From contig NZ_CM001023.1 of assembly GCF_000166275.1 (NCBI RefSeq), forward strand, positions 682,001-746,000: a stretch of 64,000 nt of DNA, given 5' to 3'. The DNA comes from Algoriphagus machipongonensis. Its GTDB lineage: Bacteria; Bacteroidota; Bacteroidia; Cytophagales; Cyclobacteriaceae. The position numbers were made by a program, and so were the translations under genes. This document shows positions 26,663 through 36,938 of this stretch, in pieces (the first letter of the stretch is position 1; the number at the start of each line of letters is the position of its first letter). The notes under the pieces are model-generated. The model was given only the letters and a program-made list of their open reading frames with translations, did no database searches and was not told the origin of the DNA.

Positions 26663-29638
26663 ATGCAAAATAAAGGTGTCATTGTGTTTTTGACAGTGAT
26701 TGTTACAGCGCTTTGTCTGTACTATCTGTCATTCACATTTGTATCAAATAACGTCCAGAATAAAGCGGAAGCTTATGCGACGGACGCCTCTGGCAACGTA
26801 GATTTCGCCCAGAGAAGAGCTTATCTAGACTCCGTTTGGAGAGAGCCTGTTTATAACTTCTTAGGTGCTGATTATACATATCAGGAAGTAAAAGAAACTG
26901 AGCTTGGTCTTGGTCTAGATCTACAGGGTGGTATGCATGTTACTTTGGCGGTATCTCCAGTGGAGATCGTGAAAGGACTTGCTGGTAACCCAAAAGATGT
27001 AGCTTTCAACAAGTCTGTAGAAGAGGCAAGAGAAGCTTCCAAGACTTCAGATGAGAAGTATGTTGACTTGTTTTATTCTGCTTGGCAGGCCAATAGTTCT
27101 GGTAAAAACTTAAGTTCCATTTTTGCTACTGCAGCAAACAGAGGAAGAATTTCTTTGGAATCTTCTGATTCTGAAATTCTTGATATCATCGATACTGAAA
27201 TCGAAAATGCTATTGAGCGTTCCTTTAATATCCTAAGAACTCGTATCGATAGATTCGGTACTTCTCAGCCTAATATCCAGAGAATTCAAGGTTCAGGAAG
27301 AATTCAGATCGAACTTCCAGGGGTAGATAACCAAGAGCGTGTAAGAAACTTATTACAAGGAGTTGCAAAACTTCAGTTTTGGGAAGTTACTGAGATAAAT
27401 GAAATTGGAGCTTCCCTTGAAGCAATCAATAGTGCATACCTAGCGGAGCAGAAAAATACTGCAAGCACAGAAACTGCTGCAACAGACTCTCTTTCTACAG
27501 AGAACCTATCTCCTGAAGATTCTTTGAGAAATGCCTTGGATGAGCAGTTGAATCAGATTGACCCAACAAATCCAGATGCCAGCACTTCACCAATTTTTAG
27601 CTTACTAAAAGCTAATTATGGCTTGGTTTACGACATCAAAGATACGGTTACTATCAACAGAATCTTGAAGAGAGACGAATACAAGGCACTACTTCCAAGA
27701 GATGTGAAATTACTTTGGGGAGTTAAGCCAACCGTCGCTGAAGATGGATCTGAATTATTAGAACTATATGCAATCAGTACTCCAAGAGGTACTGACCAAG
27801 CGCCATTAGAGGGTGATGTGGTTACAGATGCTCGTCAGGTTCTTGACCAAACTTCAAGACCTGCAGTTTCTATGCAAATGAATGCAGAAGGTGCTAGAAA
27901 ATGGAGAAAATTGACGGCTGACAATACAGGTAGAAGAATCGCCGTAGTATTGGATGATTATGTTTACACGGCGCCGGTAGTAAATGGAGAAATCCCAACT
28001 GGACAATCCGAAATTTCTGGCAACTTCACGTTACAAGAGGCTCAAGATTTGGCTAACATCCTGAAATCAGGTTCTCTTCCTGCTCCAACTCAAATTGTAG
28101 AAGAAAGTATCATCGGTCCAACCTTAGGTAAAGAAGCTCTTAATCAAGGTTTGATTTCTATGGTAGCTGGTTTAGCTATCGTTGTTCTATTCATGGTGGC
28201 ATATTATGCTAAAGGTGGATTGATCGCGATCGCTGCTTTGGTTTTCAACATCTTCTTTATCCTAGGGATTTTAGCTCAGCTTCAGTCATCCTTGACTTTG
28301 CCAGGTATCGCAGGTATTGTACTGACCATAGGTATGTCCATTGATGCCAACGTCCTGATTTTTGAAAGGATTAAAGAAGAACTCAGGAATGGGGTAGGCC
28401 TTCTGGCAGCTATCAATGCCGGTTATAACAAAGCCTTCTCCGCAATTCTTGACTCCAATGTTACAACTTTCTTGACAGGTGCTATTCTATATGCTCTAGG
28501 TCAAGGTCCTGTAAAAGGATTTGCAATCGTATTGATGATTGGTATTGCTTCTTCTTTCTTCTCTTCGGTATTCATCACTAGAGTGATTGTTTCTTGGATG
28601 AGCAAAAAAGGAGATAAGAGTTCTATTAACTTCTCTACACCATTCACAAAGAATGCATTGAGTTCTTTGAACATCGATTTCTTAGGCAAGAGAAAAGTTG
28701 CTTACTTGATTTCTACAAGTATCATCGTTCTTGGATTAGGTGTTGCAGCCATTAATGGCTTGAAGTTCGGTGTGGATTTCACTGGAGGTAGATCTTATAT
28801 TGTAGCTTTTGCTGAGCCAGTTGCTGCTTCTGAATTGAAAACTGGCCTAGACGGTGAGTTTGATGGTTCTGTAGAAGTTAAAACATACGGCGCAACGAAT
28901 GTTTTGAAAGTAACGACATCCTATTTGATCAATGAAGATGATGATGCTTCCAATAAAGAAGTAGAATCAAAAGTAAAAGAAGGTATTGCTTCAGTGACAG
29001 GACTTACTTTTACGGAGGATGCAGAAGACCTCACAAACCAAGAGTTTGCAATTACTGGATCTTCTAAAGTAGGAGCAACCGTGGCAGATGATATTAAAGC
29101 TTCTTCAGGTGAAGCGATGATTGTCGCTTTGATTGCGATCTTCCTTTATATTTTGATCAGATTCCGTAAGTGGCAATTCTCATTGGCATCTATCATTGCA
29201 TTGATTCACGATACGTTATTTGTGATTGCTGCATTTGCCATTGCAAGTGCCTTTGGAGCGACCTTTGAAATTGATCAGGTGTTCATTGCTGCTGTCTTGA
29301 CCGTAATTGGTTATTCGATTAACGATACTGTAATTGTATTTGATAGAATTAGAGAGAATCTGGATAATAGAGGAACTAACCGATTGGTGAAAACATTCAA
29401 CGATGCCATTAACCAAACATTAGGAAGGACTTTGATTACCTCATTTACTACTATGATCGTGATTATCGTATTACTATTATTTGGTGGTGAGGTATTGAGA
29501 GGCTTCTCTTTTGCCTTATTTATCGGTATCCTAGTGGGTACTTACTCATCGGTTTACATCGCTACTCCAATTGTCGTTGATTTGATGAAAAGAGAAATTG
29601 ATCAAGAAGAATTAAAAGAAGCTAAGAAGGTAGCTTAA
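26663..29638 (+). CDS. secDF: Protein translocase subunit SecDF (fused)
   Basis: 991 residues, SecD and SecF in one chain. The SecD part runs to about 640: N-terminal helix, LGLGLDLQGGMHVTLAV (about 80-96), large periplasmic P1 domain with a low-complexity insert (about 265-310), then GIAGIVLTIGMSIDANVLIFERIKEEL. The SecF part runs from about 665: GLKFGVDFTGGRSYIV and TVIGYSINDTVIVFDRIREN. Twelve membrane segments in total. It uses the proton gradient to pull secreted proteins across the inner membrane, with SecYEG. The fusion is normal for Bacteroidota. Ends at a terminator. Confidence 0.98.
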   Translation: MQNKGVIVFLTVIVTALCLYYLSFTFVSNNVQNKAEAYATDASGNVDFAQRRAYLDSVWREPVYNFLGADYTYQEVKETELGLGLDLQGGMHVTLAVSPVEIVKGLAGNPKDVAFNKSVEEAREASKTSDEKYVDLFYSAWQANSSGKNLSSIFATAANRGRISLESSDSEILDIIDTEIENAIERSFNILRTRIDRFGTSQPNIQRIQGSGRIQIELPGVDNQERVRNLLQGVAKLQFWEVTEINEIGASLEAINSAYLAEQKNTASTETAATDSLSTENLSPEDSLRNALDEQLNQIDPTNPDASTSPIFSLLKANYGLVYDIKDTVTINRILKRDEYKALLPRDVKLLWGVKPTVAEDGSELLELYAISTPRGTDQAPLEGDVVTDARQVLDQTSRPAVSMQMNAEGARKWRKLTADNTGRRIAVVLDDYVYTAPVVNGEIPTGQSEISGNFTLQEAQDLANILKSGSLPAPTQIVEESIIGPTLGKEALNQGLISMVAGLAIVVLFMVAYYAKGGLIAIAALVFNIFFILGILAQLQSSLTLPGIAGIVLTIGMSIDANVLIFERIKEELRNGVGLLAAINAGYNKAFSAILDSNVTTFLTGAILYALGQGPVKGFAIVLMIGIASSFFSSVFITRVIVSWMSKKGDKSSINFSTPFTKNALSSLNIDFLGKRKVAYLISTSIIVLGLGVAAINGLKFGVDFTGGRSYIVAFAEPVAASELKTGLDGEFDGSVEVKTYGATNVLKVTTSYLINEDDDASNKEVESKVKEGIASVTGLTFTEDAEDLTNQEFAITGSSKVGATVADDIKASSGEAMIVALIAIFLYILIRFRKWQFSLASIIALIHDTLFVIAAFAIASAFGATFEIDQVFIAAVLTVIGYSINDTVIVFDRIRENLDNRGTNRLVKTFNDAINQTLGRTLITSFTTMIVIIVLLLFGGEVLRGFSFALFIGILVGTYSSVYIATPIVVDLMKREIDQEELKEAKKVA

Positions 29639-29724: not shown

Positions 29725-29764
29725 CCATGAAATTAATTTCACACTTAACGGACAGCATTTTTCT

Positions 29765-30169
29765 ATGAAAATTACAAAAGAGGACTTCAAGTCTATGCAA
29801 GAAAAGTATGACAAAGAAGTCAAAAAAGGTAAGCCTGCCAAAGGCAAAGGTGACAAGGATAAAAACAACCAAACCGATTGGATTTTTATAGATAGAGGGA
29901 CATTAGAGGGGTTATTGGAAAAAGTGGATCAAGACCCAAATGTTGGTGGGATCCAATTTTATTTCACGGAGTACACTGAAAAAATGGCCAAAGAACGGTA
30001 CCCAGAGGGATCAGATAAATATGTCGGGCAAATGACCCTTGTCATGCGAGCGGCTAACCTTAAAGGAAATAAATTGGTAGCTGTCGAGTTAACCGGAAGA
30101 GAAGGTGAATACGAAAACGATGGGGTAGAGTGCCCATTTGTCTGTGAGCCGGAACCAACAGACACCTAA
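29765..30169 (+). CDS. Array protein A1: soluble protein with C-terminal CPxxCEPEP, unknown
   Basis: 134 residues, no signal peptide or membrane helix. No named family recognised. The N-terminal segment MKITKEDFKSMQEKYDKEV is followed by a Lys-rich linker (about 17-33), a compact alpha/beta part (TDWIFIDRGTLEGLLEK, then GGIQFYFTEYTE, then MTLVMRAAN) and an end with Cys123 and Cys127 in CPFVCEPEP. It is about 60 percent identical to A2/A3 by eye. The B1 gene starts two bases after the stop, so the two are probably translationally coupled. The two-Cys motif could bind metal or be redox-active; this is inference. Confidence 0.85.
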   Translation: MKITKEDFKSMQEKYDKEVKKGKPAKGKGDKDKNNQTDWIFIDRGTLEGLLEKVDQDPNVGGIQFYFTEYTEKMAKERYPEGSDKYVGQMTLVMRAANLKGNKLVAVELTGREGEYENDGVECPFVCEPEPTDT

Positions 30170-30171
30170 AC

Positions 30172-30933
30172 ATGGACAGTAAAATTTGGATTGCCTTTGG
30201 ACACTGGTATCTTCTTGTTTTAGATGTTTTTCTAATCCTGGGCGTCTATTTTTTCTTTAGATTACCAAAAGAAATGAGAGCCAATAGCAATTATTGGCTT
30301 CCATTTTTAATTTTATGCTTCATCTTTTTATATAACAATTTCGCAGGTTATACCAATTACAATTTTGAGTTTAAGAAGGCAGTTAATGCCTATTTAGGGA
30401 ACACGGAATTCCCCAAATTCAATCTTTGGCTTTATAATATAACCAGAAGGCAAATCCAGGTAGTTCTTTATTTGTTTTTAGTAAAATCTTGGTTGGAGCC
30501 TTCCAAGAGGAAATACATCAACTGGATGATTTATGCTTTTATATTCCTTGCACTCCTATTGCAAATCTTTGGAGTTGAACTCATGTATCTTCAGCAGCCG
30601 ATCATTTATTCCATCGGTGCTAACATGATCCTGATTGCCTGTGGACTTTATTTTATTGGTATGATCACAACCGATAATTATCTGAATTCAAACCCCATTC
30701 GCTTAGTATCTTTTTGGGCCACAACCTTATTATTATTTGACTATTCTATTACATACATCTATACTGTCTCACTCTTTTACTTGTATCAAGTAAACCCAAC
30801 TTTTGGGGCAAGTCTGGGAGGTGTAGTAAATGTGATCAATCTTATAAATACCTCAGCTTTACTTTTGTTAATTGCCTCACCTTATCTATCAAAAGTTTTT
30901 GACAAGGAACCGTTTTTTAAATTGAACTATTGA
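30172..30933 (+). CDS. Array protein B1: seven-helix membrane protein ending in DKEPF family motif, unknown
   Basis: 253 residues. Seven hydrophobic segments: about 13-30, 42-60, 92-106, 117-135, 140-164, 180-203 and 217-240. Loop signatures shared by all four B proteins are LPKE (after helix 1), NYNFEFKKAVNAYLGNT (after helix 2), QPII (start of helix 5), NPIRLVSFW (before helix 6) and FDKEPF near the C-terminus. No named family recognised. The seven-helix layout resembles the membrane sensor half of 7TM histidine kinases, but there is no attached signalling domain. Paired with A1. Confidence 0.85.
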   Translation: MDSKIWIAFGHWYLLVLDVFLILGVYFFFRLPKEMRANSNYWLPFLILCFIFLYNNFAGYTNYNFEFKKAVNAYLGNTEFPKFNLWLYNITRRQIQVVLYLFLVKSWLEPSKRKYINWMIYAFIFLALLLQIFGVELMYLQQPIIYSIGANMILIACGLYFIGMITTDNYLNSNPIRLVSFWATTLLLFDYSITYIYTVSLFYLYQVNPTFGASLGGVVNVINLINTSALLLLIASPYLSKVFDKEPFFKLNY

Positions 30934-31014
30934 TAGAGCAATTGATCAAAAACTCAAGACCCTGACCCGCCTAGTATGTTGTCTATCCTATTGATCCTAC
31001 ATCACTCAAAAAAA

Positions 31015-31046
31015 TTGACTTAAAGGCAATAATTATAGTATATTTT
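31015..31046 (+). promoter_or_regulatory. Promoter of A2, TTG-N21-TATATTTT
   Basis: TTG 31015-31017, 21 bases, TATATTTT 31039-31046; same spacing and variant -7 as at A1 and A3. A 54-base leader follows. Confidence 0.6.
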
Positions 31047-31100
31047 CAGGATCATCCTTATGATGAAATTGATTTTATACTTAACGAAAAACATTTTTCT

Positions 31101-31496
31101 ATGAAAATTTCAAAAGAAGACTTCAAGTCTATGCAAAAAAAGTATGACAAAGAAGTCAAAAAAGGGAAGCCTGCCAAAGACAAAAAAGGGAAAGATAAAG
31201 TAGATCAAACCAATTGGATTTTTTTCAACAGAGAGACTTTGGAAGGTTTATTGGAGAAAGCTGATAAAGACCCAAAAAAGGGTGGAATTCAGTTTTACAT
31301 TACAGAATATACTGAGGAAGTTGCCCAAAAATATCATCCTAAGGAAGTAGAGCAATTAACAGGAGCACTTACTATTGTGATGAGGCCGGCAAATTTGGAA
31401 GAAGACCAACTTACCTTGACCGCAGGCGAAGAAGATTATGAAAATAATGGAAGAATTTGTCCTCCATTCTGTGATCCCGAGCCTACCAATTCCTGA
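31101..31496 (+). CDS. Array protein A2: soluble protein with C-terminal CPPFCDPEP, unknown
   Basis: 131 residues. Almost identical to A3: Lys versus Asn at residue 21 and a different last two or three residues. Same layout as A1: N-terminal KISKEDFKSMQKKYDKEV, Lys-rich linker (17-33), NWIFFNRETLEGLLEK, GGIQFYITEYTEE, TIVMRPANL, then Cys120 and Cys124 in CPPFCDPEP. Predicted soluble and cytoplasmic. B2 starts two bases after the stop. Function unknown. Confidence 0.86.
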   Translation: MKISKEDFKSMQKKYDKEVKKGKPAKDKKGKDKVDQTNWIFFNRETLEGLLEKADKDPKKGGIQFYITEYTEEVAQKYHPKEVEQLTGALTIVMRPANLEEDQLTLTAGEEDYENNGRICPPFCDPEPTNS

Positions 31497-31498
31497 TA

Positions 31499-32284
31499 AT
31501 GGATAGTAAATTCTGGGAGGCCTATAGTAATTATTATACAATCACCATAGATTGCATATTGATCATAGGGGTCTATTTCTTTCTAAAATTGCCAAAGGAA
31601 AAAAAAGCCAATAGTATCTATTGGCTTCCTTTGTTGATTTTAGGTTTTTCCGTTTTTTATGAAGCTTTGGGAGCTTATGCTAATTACAACTTTGAATTTA
31701 AAAAAGCTGTCAATGCCTTTTTAGGCAATACTGAGAACCCAAAATATAACATTTGGATATACAATATTACCAACAAACAAATCTCAACTTTACTTAATTT
31801 GTTTTTGATAAAAAAATTAATTGAGCCAACAAAGAAGGTATATTTAACATGGATGATCTTTTTTTTTATTATAGTAGCCTTCATTTTACAAGTTACAGGT
31901 ATTGAACCCTTATATTTAAATCAGCCCATTATTGCAGTCATGGCTGCTAGTATGATTTTAATCGGGAGTGGTCTTTATTTTATAGGATTGATCAGCAATG
32001 AACAATATTTAAATTCCAAACCAATCCGATTAAATTCATTTTGGATCATGACCCTTTTACTTTTTACCTATGCACTGACCTATATAAATTCTGTAGCACG
32101 CATCTATATTTATGAGTTTAATCCTCAAACAGCATTGAGTTTAGCCCATATTGATAGAATCCTTGGGATTTTACTCAGGTTAACTCTCCTATTAATTATT
32201 ATTTCTCCTTTTCTCCCTAGAGTTTTTGACAAAGAACCATTTTCCCAATCCAAAAGGAAGTTTAAACTTCAAAGTAGTTTTTAA
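31499..32284 (+). CDS. Array protein B2: seven-helix membrane protein, unknown
   Basis: 261 residues and seven hydrophobic segments as in B1. Family signatures: LPKEKKANSIYWLP, NYNFEFKKAVNAFLGNT, NQPII, KPIRLNSFW and VFDKEPF. After DKEPF it carries a basic tail of about 14 residues (SQSKRKFKLQSSF) that B3 and B4 lack. Similarity to B4 is moderate (a little over half of residues by eye), much lower than between their A partners. The codons are strongly A/T-rich. Confidence 0.85.
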   Translation: MDSKFWEAYSNYYTITIDCILIIGVYFFLKLPKEKKANSIYWLPLLILGFSVFYEALGAYANYNFEFKKAVNAFLGNTENPKYNIWIYNITNKQISTLLNLFLIKKLIEPTKKVYLTWMIFFFIIVAFILQVTGIEPLYLNQPIIAVMAASMILIGSGLYFIGLISNEQYLNSKPIRLNSFWIMTLLLFTYALTYINSVARIYIYEFNPQTALSLAHIDRILGILLRLTLLLIIISPFLPRVFDKEPFSQSKRKFKLQSSF

Positions 32285-32352
32285 GATCTTGTTTTAACAT
32301 TTAATCCCATATTTTGTGTCTTAAAATAAAGGAATGGAATTCCACCTGAGAA

Positions 32353-33108
32353 ATGAGCGATAGATTTATAGAAGCCTTTTTTACTGCCTATCCGCAATAC
32401 TCCATTCCACCTGACCTGTTACTCCTGATTGGAATATTTATCTTTATTAAATTACCAAAGGAAAAAAAACGAAATATTCACTTTTTGCTTCCTTTTGTGA
32501 TTTTGTGCTTCACCGTTTTTTATGGAAATCTGGGCAGTTACACTAACTACAATTATGAATTTAAAAAATCAGTAAACGCATACTTGGGAAATACCGAGTA
32601 TCCTCAGTTCAATCTCTGGCTTTTTAATATAGCTGAAAGACAAGTAGGCACTATTCTTTATTTAATGCTGATCAAATCTTATTTGAGACCTTTCAAAAGA
32701 AAAATTATCAATTGGATGATTTTTCTATTTATAGTGACGGCATCGATACTTCAATTTTCAGGAATTGAACCTATCTATCTGAACCAGCCTATCATTTTTG
32801 CAATCGGTGCAAATATGATCTTGTTTGGAGGCGCTTTGTATTTTACTGACTTGATTACCCATCCCTCATATCTAAATGGCAATCCGTTAAGATTAACCTC
32901 ATTCTGGCAAATGACAGCTATTATCTTCATGTTTACCTTAAGCTACATAAGTTCTGTGGCCTTAATTTATCTATATGAAGTCAATCCAGTATTAGGTAGT
33001 GCCTTGCAATCTATTGGTATTTATCTAGGGATATTAACATTAGCAGTTTTAACTATTAGTATTGCTTCTCCCCTCCTTCCAAATATATTTGATAAAGAAC
33101 CATTTTAA
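32353..33108 (+). CDS. Array protein B3: seven-helix membrane protein without an A partner, unknown
   Basis: 251 residues and seven hydrophobic segments. Signatures: LPKEKKRN, NYNYEFKKSVNAYLGNT, NQPIIFAIGANMIL, NPLRLTSFW, and it ends exactly with IFDKEPF. It starts 68 bp after B2 and has no A gene or A-type leader in front of it; the N-terminus also differs (SIPPDLLLL). Either its A gene was lost or B proteins can share one A. Function unknown. Confidence 0.84.
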   Translation: MSDRFIEAFFTAYPQYSIPPDLLLLIGIFIFIKLPKEKKRNIHFLLPFVILCFTVFYGNLGSYTNYNYEFKKSVNAYLGNTEYPQFNLWLFNIAERQVGTILYLMLIKSYLRPFKRKIINWMIFLFIVTASILQFSGIEPIYLNQPIIFAIGANMILFGGALYFTDLITHPSYLNGNPLRLTSFWQMTAIIFMFTLSYISSVALIYLYEVNPVLGSALQSIGIYLGILTLAVLTISIASPLLPNIFDKEPF

Positions 33109-33210
33109 AAATTCATATAGGTAGCCTTTTAATCAAAAAAGAATGCCAAACATTCTACTAATACTAACTTGGCATTTAGATCCCTCTATAAATCTACTTC
33201 CTAATTTTAA

Positions 33211-33242
33211 TTGACTTAAAGGGAAAAATTATAGTATATTTT
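33211..33242 (+). promoter_or_regulatory. Promoter of A3, TTG-N21-TATATTTT
   Basis: TTG 33211-33213, 21 bases, TATATTTT 33235-33242. Part of the long direct repeat. A 54-base leader follows. Confidence 0.6.
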
Positions 33243-33296
33243 CAGGATCATCCTTGGAATGAAATTGATTTATCACTTAACGAAAAACATTTTTCT

Positions 33297-33689
33297 ATGA
33301 AAATTTCAAAAGAGGACTTCAAGTCTATGCAAAAAAAGTATGACAAAGAAGTCAAAAATGGAAAGCCTGCCAAAGACAAAAAAGGGAAGGATAAAGTAGA
33401 TCAAACCAATTGGATTTTTTTCAACAGAGAGACTTTGGAAGGTTTATTGGAGAAAGCTGATAAAGACCCAAAAAAGGGTGGAATTCAGTTTTACATTACA
33501 GAATATACTGAGGAAGTTGCCCAAAAATATCATCCTAAGGAAGTAGAGCAACTAACTGGAGCACTTACTATTGTGATGAGGCCGGCAAATTTGGAAGAAG
33601 ACCAACTTACCTTGACCGCAGGCGAGGAAGATTATGAAAATAATGGAAGAATTTGTCCTCCATTCTGTGATCCAGAGCCTAATACCTGA
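33297..33689 (+). CDS. Array protein A3: soluble protein with C-terminal CPPFCDPEP, unknown
   Basis: 130 residues, near-duplicate of A2 (KNGKPAK in place of KKGKPAK, and a different C-terminal end after DPEP). Cys120 and Cys124 are kept. Predicted soluble, with no signal peptide. B4 starts two bases after the stop, the same gap as in the other two A-B pairs. Function unknown. Confidence 0.86.
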   Translation: MKISKEDFKSMQKKYDKEVKNGKPAKDKKGKDKVDQTNWIFFNRETLEGLLEKADKDPKKGGIQFYITEYTEEVAQKYHPKEVEQLTGALTIVMRPANLEEDQLTLTAGEEDYENNGRICPPFCDPEPNT

Positions 33690-33691
33690 TT

Positions 33692-34450
33692 ATGAGAGGT
33701 GATTTCTGGGAGGCCTTTGGGGGTTGGTATATGATTTCGATTGATCTTATTTTAGTGATCGGTATTTACTACTTTTTTAGGCTTCCGAAAGAAAAAAGGG
33801 CCAATAGTTTCTATTGGTTACCTTTTTTAATTTTGACTTTTACTGTTTTCTATGAAAATTTTGGAGCCTATACTTTATTTAACTTTGAATTTAGAAAAGC
33901 TGCGAATGCTTTCTTAGGGAACACAAAAGATCCAAGATATAATATTTGGATTTTCAACATTGCTAATAAACAAATCTCAACAATACTTTATCTTTTTTTG
34001 ATTAAATCTTGGTTGGATCCATCAAAGAAGATTTATATCAAATGGATTATTATTTCGTTTTTTATCATCACTCAAGTCATACAGTTTTCTGGTGCTGAGC
34101 CCGTATATTTAAATCAACCCATCATTTTTAGCATTGGGGCTAATATGATATTAATATCAAGTGGGCTTTATTTTATTGGATTAATGACTAATGAAAATTA
34201 CCTATCCTCCAACCCACTTCGATTGCTTTCATTTTGGCAGATGACTTTTATACTATTTACATATTCATTGACCTACATAACCTCAGTTTCAATGATGTAT
34301 CTCAATACCCACTATCCTCAATTTTTGTATTCCCTATTAAAAATTGATTGGGTCATGGGAGTAATAAATTTAGCTATTTTGGGATTGACAATTGCTTCTC
34401 CAAAATTCCCTGGCCTATTTGAAAAAGAACCATTTTATGAATCCCACTGA
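33692..34450 (+). CDS. Array protein B4: seven-helix membrane protein, overlaps the kinase gene
   Basis: 252 residues and seven hydrophobic segments. Signatures: LPKEKRANSFYWLP, FNFEFRKAANAFLGNT, NQPIIFSIGANMIL, NPLRLLSFW and LFEKEPF. The TTTATGAA directly after the KEPF codons contains the ATG of the histidine kinase gene, giving a 14-bp overlap and tight coupling. This ties the A/B array to the two-component pair. Function unknown; a membrane sensor input for the kinase is my inference. Confidence 0.86.
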   Translation: MRGDFWEAFGGWYMISIDLILVIGIYYFFRLPKEKRANSFYWLPFLILTFTVFYENFGAYTLFNFEFRKAANAFLGNTKDPRYNIWIFNIANKQISTILYLFLIKSWLDPSKKIYIKWIIISFFIITQVIQFSGAEPVYLNQPIIFSIGANMILISSGLYFIGLMTNENYLSSNPLRLLSFWQMTFILFTYSLTYITSVSMMYLNTHYPQFLYSLLKIDWVMGVINLAILGLTIASPKFPGLFEKEPFYESH

Positions 34451-35192
34451 AGATCAAATTTACGTCATCATTTTCAGCACCCTATTTTTAGGAGGCTTAA
34501 TGTCCACTTTTGTTGTGGCTATGGTTTTTATCCATAGACAAAGACAGGCGCAGAACCGCCAAAAAATGGATCAGATCAAATCTGAACACGAAAAAACTTT
34601 GCTGAATATAGAAAATGAAATCCAGCAGGAAACACTAACTCATATCGGTAGGGAGCTACATGATAACATTGGTCAGTTACTTTCCCTGGCGAAGCTTTAC
34701 CTGGGCTCTTCCAAGCCGGAAAAGCAAGCAGAGGGTCGATATACGATCAATCAAGTGATTACGGAGGTCCGTGCCCTATCCAAAACGCTGAATTTAGACT
34801 GGGTAGAAACTTTGAGTATAAAGGATTTTATAGAGCAGCAACTTGAAAAGATCCAAACGACAGGGTTTTGTGAGACCAAACTAGAAGTAGAAAAAGATTT
34901 AGGTGAGTTGCCTAAAGATCATAAACTTGTTCTTATTCGAGTGATCCAGGAAGTATTAAATAATTCTATCAAACATGCCTCACCTGATGAGATCAGTGTG
35001 AAAATTCTAGAAAAAAACGGCGTGAGGCAAGTGGAAATAAAAGACAATGGGAAAGGGTTTGATACTTCAATCAAGTCACAAGGAAGTGGCATGTACAATC
35101 TTGAGAAGAGAATGGAGACGATAGGAGGAGAGTTTAAAATTTCTTCTCAACCAGGAAAAGGAACACTTATCCATTTATTGTTGCCAAATTAA
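34437..35192 (+). CDS. Sensor histidine kinase, HisKA_3 (NarX/DesK-like) type, without sensor domain
   Basis: 251 residues from the ATG at 34437 inside the end of B4; a longer frame from 34392 lies wholly inside B4. One membrane helix (about 9-32) is followed by a coiled coil (about 36-68), the dimerisation/phospho-acceptor segment IGRELHDNIGQLLSLAKL with His75, then the HATPase domain: N box VLNNSIKHA (Asn175), G1 box DNGKGF (203-208) and G2 GSGMYNLEKRM. There is no periplasmic or other sensor domain, so the signal must come from a partner, plausibly the B proteins. Its regulator follows after 65 bp. Confidence 0.93.
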   Translation: MNPTEDQIYVIIFSTLFLGGLMSTFVVAMVFIHRQRQAQNRQKMDQIKSEHEKTLLNIENEIQQETLTHIGRELHDNIGQLLSLAKLYLGSSKPEKQAEGRYTINQVITEVRALSKTLNLDWVETLSIKDFIEQQLEKIQTTGFCETKLEVEKDLGELPKDHKLVLIRVIQEVLNNSIKHASPDEISVKILEKNGVRQVEIKDNGKGFDTSIKSQGSGMYNLEKRMETIGGEFKISSQPGKGTLIHLLLPN

Positions 35193-35257
35193 AATTCAAG
35201 GCGTAATTTCATTTTTGAATTATTTCAAAAGCGTGATCCCCCTAATTACCCAATTAA

Positions 35258-35884
35258 ATGATCAGAATAGCTTTAGCTGATGACCACAAACTATTCGCTA
35301 AAGGAATAGAAAGTTTGTTGGATGAATATGACGACTTACTCATCACGGGTATTTACCCGAATGGGAAAGAACTGATTGATTCGCTCAAAATGGATCTTCC
35401 TGATGTTATTTTGACAGATTTGAATATGCCAGTTTTAGATGGTTTTGGAGTCCTAAAATCTTCTAAAAAGGCTTTTCCCAAGATTAAGGTCATAGTACTC
35501 TCTATGTATGATGATGAGAAAATCTACAAGAAATGTATGAAAGAAGGGGCGGATGCTTTTATTCTTAAAGATGCAGATCCTGACGAATTAGTCTATACCA
35601 TACACGAGGTTTATGATGGCAGGCACATCGCCAACTTTCAAAGGGTAATACAACAGGCCAATCAAAGTTCTTTTTACGATGCATTTAGAGAGAAATTTAA
35701 ACTTTCCAGAAGGGAAGTGCAGATCATTAAGTTGATTAAAGATGGAATGCAGAATAAGGAAATCGCAGATGATCTCAGCTTAAGCGTTCAAACAATAGAA
35801 ACCCATCGAAAAAATATCCATTCTAAACTTCATGTTTCTTCCAGAATCGAACTGGTAAACAAAGTTCAGGATATGAATCTTTAA
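35258..35884 (+). CDS. Response regulator, REC plus LuxR-type helix-turn-helix
   Basis: 208 residues. The receiver domain (about 1-120) has the acidic pair Asp8-Asp9, phospho-acceptor Asp54 (ILTDLNMPVLDG) and Lys104 (FILKDAD). The DNA-binding domain (about 143-205) reads LSRREVQIIKLIKDGMQNKEIADDL, then VQTIETHRKNIHSKLHV, a NarL/FixJ-type HTH. It is the natural partner of the upstream HisKA_3 kinase. Its targets could include the A-gene promoters, which share a leader, but no operator was identified. Confidence 0.94.
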   Translation: MIRIALADDHKLFAKGIESLLDEYDDLLITGIYPNGKELIDSLKMDLPDVILTDLNMPVLDGFGVLKSSKKAFPKIKVIVLSMYDDEKIYKKCMKEGADAFILKDADPDELVYTIHEVYDGRHIANFQRVIQQANQSSFYDAFREKFKLSRREVQIIKLIKDGMQNKEIADDLSLSVQTIETHRKNIHSKLHVSSRIELVNKVQDMNL

Positions 35885-35891
35885 ACTCACT

Positions 35892-36938
35892 ATGAAATCT
35901 CCAATCAAAACAGCAATTGTCGGCTACGGATCTGTCGCTGAAAAAATGCATGCGCCTCTGATAAGCGTTTGTTCAGATTTGGAATTGATAGCTGTGGTTG
36001 AACGTCATCAAAACAAGAGTCAAGAGAAATATCCAGAAGTAACAATTTATAGAAGTTTAGAGGAACTACTCGAAAAAAGTGATGTTGATTTGGTCGTGAT
36101 TACCACCCCAAATACTCATCATTTTCCGATGGCAAAACAATGCCTTTTGGCGGGGAAGCATGTGGTAGTAGACAAGCCTATCACGATCCATTCTTGGGAA
36201 GCTGAGGAATTGAAAGTCCTATCTGAGAAAGTAGGGAAAATTTGCACCGCTTTCCAAAACAGAAGGTTTGATGGAGATATTTTGACTCTTCAGCAATTGG
36301 TAGAAGAGGAGACATTAGGGGGCTTGGTTTACCTGGAGTCACATTTCGATAGGTTTAGGCCCGATTTGTCCGGAAATTGGCGTGAAGAAGTAGGAGCTGG
36401 GAATGGGATCACTTATGATTTAGGATCTCACCTGATTGACCAGGTGTATATAACCTTCGGAGCTCCCGACAGTATACAGGCTGATATCCGAAAGCAAAGG
36501 ACCGATGCGATCGTTGATGATCATTTCGATATCACGATGGATTATGGGAGGTTTAAAGCTCGGTTGACAGCTGGTGTTTTAGTCAATGCGCCTACGCCAA
36601 AATATCTTCTTTTAGGTCAAAATGGCTCCTACCAGAAATTCGGAATGGATGTTCAGGAGCAAGCCTTTAAAGCAGGGGTTCAGCCAGCAGGGGATTCTTG
36701 GGGAGTAGAACCTGAGGAGAATTGGGGGAAAATATTCCTCAAAGATGGCACGAAGCCCTACCCTTCAATTCCTGGAGATTACAGAATTTTTTACAATAAT
36801 ATCGCGGATGTTTTATTGCGTGGAGCTTCTCTCAAAGTAACTATTCAGCAAGCAATCAGTGTTTTAAAGATGATTGAAGCTTCTTTTTTAAGTGCTTCTG
36901 AAAATCGATCCATTGCCAGAGAAGAGGGGAATTGGTAA
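35892..36938 (+). CDS. Gfo/Idh/MocA family oxidoreductase
   Basis: 348 residues. An N-terminal Rossmann fold with AIVGYGSVAEKMHAPLI (NAD(P) site, about 7-23), DLVVITTPNTHHFPMA and the conserved VVVDKPIT (EKP-like). The C-terminal substrate domain contains GNGITYDLGSHLIDQVYITFG, with the Asp/His catalytic set of the family. The YdgJ-like subgroup oxidises sugars or polyols; the substrate is unknown. It starts seven bases after the regulator stop, so it is probably cotranscribed with the two-component genes. Confidence 0.92.
   Translation: MKSPIKTAIVGYGSVAEKMHAPLISVCSDLELIAVVERHQNKSQEKYPEVTIYRSLEELLEKSDVDLVVITTPNTHHFPMAKQCLLAGKHVVVDKPITIHSWEAEELKVLSEKVGKICTAFQNRRFDGDILTLQQLVEEETLGGLVYLESHFDRFRPDLSGNWREEVGAGNGITYDLGSHLIDQVYITFGAPDSIQADIRKQRTDAIVDDHFDITMDYGRFKARLTAGVLVNAPTPKYLLLGQNGSYQKFGMDVQEQAFKAGVQPAGDSWGVEPEENWGKIFLKDGTKPYPSIPGDYRIFYNNIADVLLRGASLKVTIQQAISVLKMIEASFLSASENRSIAREEGNW

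Follow-up and report, generated by a model that had tools for sequence, protein, structure and literature searches.

A short histidine kinase of Algoriphagus machipongonensis raises the question of where a kinase with hardly any sensor part of its own receives its input. Its gene lies in the window analysed here, a stretch of 64,000 nucleotides (contig NZ_CM001023.1, positions 682,001 to 746,000) from a genome that consists of a single contig of 4.79 Mb, and it is preceded by genes for two kinds of protein, small A proteins and seven-helix B membrane proteins. The array covers positions 29765..35884 of the window, on the + strand throughout, in the order A1-B1, A2-B2-B3, A3-B4, kinase and response regulator. 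A preliminary description of the stretch had listed three A genes and four B genes together with a HisKA_3 kinase of one helix and a regulator of the NarL/LuxR type, and all of these were present as open frames at the positions it gave. A, B, kinase and regulator almost certainly form one system, and B is probably its input receptor. The reading favoured here on balance is a predicted one, in which B is a receptor in the membrane that would act in trans on the sensor-poor kinase, and A is the partner of B.

The longer kinase frame (about 266 amino acids, aa) starts at TTG, the likely start being the ATG at 34437, which gives 251 aa. Pfam recognized HisKA_3 (25.4 bits, cut-off 24) and HATPase_c (48.7 bits, cut-off 26.4) in the kinase, and Response_reg (80 bits, cut-off 30.2) and GerE (63.5 bits, cut-off 23.5) in the regulator, and the pair is a HisKA_3/NarL-type two-component system. 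Only one membrane helix is present in the kinase, as the preliminary description had it, and of an outer part there is next to nothing. The other four HisKA_3 kinases of the same genome were in open frames of 604-662 aa, the window kinase, with a frame of 267 aa in that scan, being the only short one of the five found. The kinases directly 3' of a B gene in the family and phylum sets described below had a median length of 259 aa (n = 162). Also, in three loci of these sets kinases of 385-409 aa followed B, apparently with a PAS-like stretch inserted after the helix.

The family set consisted of 70 loci from the bacterial family of the host: the window, nine named relatives and 60 loci fetched because they hold A. 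The named relatives, the nearest ones, came from a collection scan for A and all belong to Algoriphagus. A HisKA_3-type kinase was present in all 70 stretches, B in 67, the regulator in 68 and all four labels in 61. A was uncalled as a gene in six loci (L058, L098, L103, L106, L107, L111), no B was called in L105, L106 and L111, and no regulator in L051 and L114. Directly adjacent B and kinase genes overlapped in 31 of 67 cases in the family set and in 72 of 95 in the phylum set, with gene starts set by a simple rule.

For the phylum set, 395 genomes were scanned with profiles from alignments extended to other families. The A profile gave 62 hits in 44 genomes and the B profile 122 hits in 70. 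A B-profile hit was found within 2 kb on the same strand for 51 of the 62 A hits, always downstream, and by the same pairing 53 of the 122 B hits had an A hit. Ten of the remaining 11 A hits, two of them in the same locus (L269), had a B at the gene level, so that profile and gene-level scans together placed a B close to 61 of the 62. The last hit (L305), a 721-aa chemotaxis-like protein, was a false A and was dropped from the counts.

The 109 phylum stretches fetched, five genomes already fetched being excluded, held 120 B genes. An A-like gene was upstream of 107 of these (92 by profile, 15 by tail pattern alone), and a HisKA_3-type kinase downstream of 101, followed also by a regulator in 89; the full A-B-kinase-regulator set was present for 84. 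In these counts other B genes were skipped in looking for the upstream A, and one stray gene was allowed before the kinase. Forty-seven small genes were in the A position, by length, strand and distance, upstream of B genes lacking an A hit; a few of them obviously belong elsewhere, for example a methyltransferase-like gene in L255. Of these genes 28 were listed by eye and 25 used for a second A profile, which matched the profile of family A in hhalign (98.0% probability, E 1.5e-13). The co-occurrence of A and B with HisKA_3/LuxR pairs in many genomes, anticipated in the preliminary description, was thus found, and the two families did not occur widely apart from each other and without a two-component system. 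In four stretches two B-kinase cassettes or an extra B were close together, and the most B hits in one genome were seven.

The front end also precedes other kinase classes. Of the 19 B genes without a HisKA_3-type kinase, six, in four loci, precede a kinase of another class: in L292 A-B is followed by a His_kinase/LytS-type kinase and a LytTR regulator, in L224 B is followed by a PAS-HisKA hybrid with a receiver, and in L226 and L231 by a PAS-HisKA kinase. No kinase was found for the other 13 B genes. This occurrence before other kinases is the strongest sign that A-B seems to be a portable input module rather than a component tied to a single pathway.

None of B1-B4 matched a Pfam or NCBIfam family above cut-off, and the Pfam scan gave no hit of these four to the major facilitator superfamily (MFS) at E 1. 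A1 and A2 likewise had no Pfam or NCBIfam family above cut-off (A3, near-identical to A2, was left out of these scans), and neither had ten A from other lineages in NCBIfam. The phylum-wide member sets of A and B gave stray family hits only, all at E 0.00045 or weaker, and neither protein matched PDB sequences at E 0.1. The profile of Algoriphagus B matched that of 24 B without an A hit in hhalign (98.5%, E 3.9e-15), which served as a control between distant B sets. A and B are real families that have no curated name in the libraries searched, as had been suspected, and as far as these libraries and the papers searched go they are apparently undescribed. No description of the cassette was found by titles and abstract openings of open-licence PMC papers, a coverage that is no proof of absence, and the available passages of a paper on lipocone proteins (PMC12419801) contained nothing on it.

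The AlphaFold2 model of B4 had a mean predicted local distance difference test score (pLDDT) of 95.7 and seven long helices. In an alignment of 66 B sequences (one of the 67 non-redundant B left out) six positions were nearly invariant, Y13, E55, N84, N89, F181 and W182, and no cysteine or histidine was. By counts of lysine and arginine, 65 of the 66 have the C-terminus and loops 1-2, 3-4 and 5-6 on the inner side. B is on these grounds confidently predicted to be a seven-helix bundle with the N-terminus outside and the C-terminus inside; on this topology, the helix limits predict E55 and N84/N89 nearer the outside and F181-W182 on the inside. Among solved structures, those closest to the B4 model were G protein-coupled receptors (GPCRs) and rhodopsins (Foldseek E 0.17 or worse, VIA Z up to 12.8), a likeness that, as far as the model goes, concerns the fold arrangement only and does not imply kinship. 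The B profile had no match among PDB sequences, which gives no profile-level kinship to GPCRs or microbial rhodopsins, distant kinship still being possible. It is possible, although unlikely, that B represents a large receptor class of the Bacteroidota with GPCR topology, separate from the kinases and combined with kinases of different classes, each receptor having its own small A protein with the conserved tail as a tethered or secreted ligand; if true, this would be a bacterial pair of a protein ligand and a seven-helix receptor.

Another explanation is that B is a transporter or membrane enzyme whose activity the kinase reads, flux sensing as in Bce-type systems. No family tells the role of B, and single B members had weak hits to transport families: Cation_efflux at E 0.0005 (1 of 34), MnhB at E 0.0008 (1 of 24) and SDF at E 0.001 (one B of the three scanned, with 18.6 bits where the cut-off is 27.9). 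However, each of these hits concerned a single member and a different family, and B is predicted to be a compact seven-helix bundle with six nearly invariant residues, its most similar structures being, in arrangement only, receptors and rhodopsins. This explanation is considered rather improbable.

The A proteins consist of a small core followed by a flexible linker and a short, conserved tail at the C-terminus; in the family this tail has the pattern N-x-G-x2-C-P-x2-C, mostly with CPPxC. The structure model of A (pLDDT 82.6) did not resemble any solved fold ranked by Foldseek. In the 55-row family alignment (three of 58 non-redundant A left out) Y15, L51, G61, G62, G88, C123, P124 and C127 were invariant. 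The linker ahead of the tail is 20-46 residues long (68 of 75 family A measured), and the tail, among the most conserved parts of the protein, ends at most eight residues from the C-terminus in 74 of 75. By a simple rule all 75 family A, including those of the window, were leaderless, and the 63 A outside the family were divided into 22 with a lipobox, 17 with another hydrophobic start and 24 leaderless; inspection by eye shows that the rule overlooks some lipoboxes, and it may call one too many. As stated, the earlier view of A as a soluble adaptor is not supported: it fits the window and the family but not the lineages in which A is lipoprotein-like. Also, two different A genes preceded one B in tandem in five loci, and in one of these (L272) one A was lipoprotein-like and the other apparently membrane-anchored.

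The position of the tail behind its linker, together with the lipoprotein-like A outside the family, would also suit A as the precursor of a secreted or surface pheromone-like signal, with B as its receptor or exporter in a quorum-type circuit, and the gene order resembles that of peptide-pheromone loci. Pheromones are variable, whereas the tail hardly varies within the family, where A moreover lacks an export signal throughout; the core of A is conserved as well, and B has no nearly invariant cysteine or histidine. Quorum sensing of the Agr/Com type uses an exported peptide processed from a short precursor, and the A proteins of the window have no leader. Such a circuit appears doubtful. Still less probable is that A is the actual sensor, of thiols, metal or redox state through the CPxxC pair, with B merely as anchor or relay: both cysteines are invariant in the family alignment, but among 63 A of other families the pair was present in only 12, the PP of the tail being kept in 52, and it is B that is the faster-changing and multiplied part. 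That the operon unites unrelated genes merely travelling together is scarcely credible. In Algoriphagus and a large part of the family the cassette has a single location, behind secDF, and adjacency there partly reflects common descent; elsewhere in the phylum, however, the same order recurs in different neighbourhoods, with genes that overlap and with other kinases.

On the favoured reading, the locus is one copy of a signalling cassette that occurs across the Bacteroidota in the order (B)-A-B-kinase-regulator, and B, acting in trans, would supply the sensory half that the kinase lacks. As only one helix and hardly any outer part are left to the kinase, its control by B is most likely exerted through contact inside the membrane, which would shift the balance between kinase and phosphatase, and the regulator would then act on DNA. 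The likeliest role of the A tail is to bind B, or B together with the kinase, and to set the state of what it binds. The B gene has multiplied in Algoriphagus and further A copies have joined it, so that several B variants may feed one kinase. The gene order, the conservation of the cassette, the overlap of B and kinase genes, the charge pattern of B and the occurrence before other kinase classes are observed; we infer the physical contact, the direction of signalling, the role of A and a ligand. The detached membrane sensor of the preliminary description remains the best reading of B, which mostly precedes a sensor-poor kinase across the phylum.

Several results weigh against this reading. 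No A-like gene was found for 13 of the 120 B and no HisKA_3-type kinase for 19, six of which have another kinase. The count of 107 A-like genes is partly circular because 25 of the 47 upstream genes were chosen by eye for a profile that itself contributed to the count, and a loose tail pattern is the sole basis of 15 of its entries. In L231 the kinase frame as called begins some 180 bases downstream of B and shows no membrane helix. Some lineages have an apparently exported A and others an A without a leader, and no single docking site on B explains both; a CPxxC-like end was present in 75/75 family A, in 12/63 phylum A and in 22/47 of the small genes upstream of other B, while the PP was mostly kept where the cysteine pair was lost. 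The correlation of distances did not single out B and kinase: the distances of the Gfo/Idh-like neighbour 3' of the array correlated more strongly with those of the kinase than the distances of B did, and followed the kinase no less closely than those of the regulator.

Systems with accessory sensor proteins are known. According to passages of PMC7191749, LiaS has no outer sensor domain, two membrane regions and a HAMP domain, works with a NarL-type regulator and is controlled by a third protein. The cassette is like LiaF-LiaS-LiaR in the absence of an outer sensor domain, the NarL-type regulator and the third protein from the same locus, but unlike LiaS the window kinase has one helix (PMC7191749, in part). 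In gene order and single helix only, the window shares with LiaFSR and VraTSR a membrane-protein gene beside a kinase lacking an outer sensor domain. Membership of these systems was rejected, as A1, A2 and B1-B4 had no family over cut-off and the kinase reached 65 bits against a Strep_LiaS cut-off of 450. To our knowledge, LiaF is not a seven-helix protein and LiaFSR has no A-like protein.

In UhpABC, the output of which is of the LuxR type, we know of no A-like protein either. Membership was rejected also here, with no MFS hit for B1-B4 and 79 bits for the kinase against a UhpB cut-off of 408. According to PMC7607045, UhpC, an MFS member, senses outside and stimulates the kinase UhpB, which has eight predicted membrane helices. 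As in UhpC-UhpB-UhpA, a separate membrane protein is the proposed sensor for the kinase, but UhpC is of the MFS type and UhpB has eight helices, the window kinase one (PMC7607045). By analogy, the cassette would work like the accessory-protein systems LiaFSR and UhpABC, yet by the tested features it is a member of neither.

Also 7TMR-DISM and HisKA_7TM are seven-helix sensor modules of signalling proteins, and both are present in the genus Algoriphagus. There they are in long frames (376-651 aa for 14 over-cut-off matches, mostly 500-1000 aa in another scan), whereas B is a separate protein of 220-260 aa. HisKA_7TM (PF16927, a 12-row profile) gave no profile match to B, with 0.2% in hhalign as compared to the distant-B control above; two other seven-helix families against each other gave 0.3%. 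For 7TMR-DISM_7TM (PF07695) the values were 2.3% and 1.2%, yet one of 24 divergent B matched it at E 0.00045. According to the abstract of PMC10653868, BtsS/LytS-type kinases have seven helices and a periplasmic N-terminus, and they bind a small ligand at the helices, on their periplasmic side. B likewise has seven helices and, by prediction, an outer N-terminus (compare PMC10653868, in part), but these kinases join sensor and kinase in one protein, while B is a separate gene product without a family hit to them.

The features of the array are given in the table below.

Table. Genes and repeated DNA of the array; positions are those of the window.
Feature	Position	Strand	Length (aa)	Description	Basis
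A1	29765..30169	+	134	leaderless; tail CPFVC seven residues from the C-terminal end	family alignment
B1	30172..30933	+	253	seven-helix B family membrane protein	alignment
DNA 5' of A2	31013..31100	+		beginning of the block repeated from 33209; shorter similar stretch from 29727	blastn
A2	31101..31496	+	131	near-identical to A3
B2	31499..32284	+	261	B family
B3	32353..33108	+	251	second B of a tandem pair, no A of its own immediately 5'
A3	33297..33689	+	130
B4	33692..34450	+	252	B family, seven long helices	AlphaFold2 model
Histidine kinase	34437..35192	+	251	few residues, one membrane helix, linker, HisKA_3, HATPase_c
Response regulator	35258..35884	+	208	receiver and GerE (NarL/LuxR type)

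The identical gap of 2 bases that had been reported for the three A-B pairs was measured as 2, 2 and 2 (A1-B1, A2-B2, A3-B4). Among 69 directly adjacent pairs of the family set, the gap was exactly 2 in just 11 and the median 6, so the exact gap is a local habit and the closeness of A and B general. The genes of B4 and the kinase overlap by 14 bases, and 65 bases separate kinase and regulator. The remaining gaps are 167 (B1-A2), 68 (B2-B3) and 188 bases (B3-A3); the array had been said to run without a break, which is true of strand and order but not of these three gaps of 68-188 bases. Immediately 5' lies a gene (26663-29638) presumed to be SecDF-like; the 70 family loci contain 47 genes related to it. 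The gene at 35892-36938, 7 bases 3' of the regulator, is taken to encode a Gfo/Idh/MocA-like oxidoreductase and has 41 relatives in the same loci.

Analysis with blastn detected a repeated block of about 1.1 kb (31013-32087 against 33209-34280, 82.6% over 1085 columns), which also includes the first part of B2 and of B4, and a shorter repeat of 29727-29940 at 31063-31276 (83.3%). A2 and A3 differ in eight of 128 compared codons, seven of these differences being silent, and B1, B2 and B3 are 54-58% identical to B4. Within the block A is near-identical and B clearly diverged, which looks like diversification of B with A staying constant; constraint, conversion or recent copying may lie behind this pattern. 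No further A or B was found in the genome by single-sequence and profile searches. In a tree of 129 of the 132 B (those <195 aa left out), the 33 Algoriphagus rows formed one side of a branch with 100/100 support. B1 and B3 each formed a distinct, well-supported pair with B from other species (100/98 and 99/81), and the partners of B2 (98/74) and B4 (88/56) were less certain. Judging from this pairing, the B copies are a genus-level Algoriphagus expansion, at least partly older than this species. As regards the earlier proposal that tandem B copies may widen what is sensed, the tree shows this radiation and no more. The 17 other Algoriphagus loci had 0-3 called A, the 0 (L058) being a missed call, and 1-4 B, and the three A and four B of the window are at the top of this range.

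Mean pairwise distances over 40 cassettes were 1.16 for A, 1.88 for B, 0.67 for the kinase, 0.57 for the regulator and 0.24 for SecDF, and by these sequence comparisons A and B evolve faster than the kinase and the regulator. In a sample of 245 genomes of the family, A was found in 61 and B, searched by single sequence, in 13; as B adjoins A in 67 of the 70 loci, B simply diverges faster.

The sensor of apparently sensorless short kinases is, by this account, probably encoded in a neighbouring gene. As some genomes carry several cassettes, the Bacteroidota may commonly sense in this way, and the cassettes, with their front end before three kinase classes, would be a natural setting in which to study how a one-helix kinase can be switched by a seven-helix protein that is separate from it.

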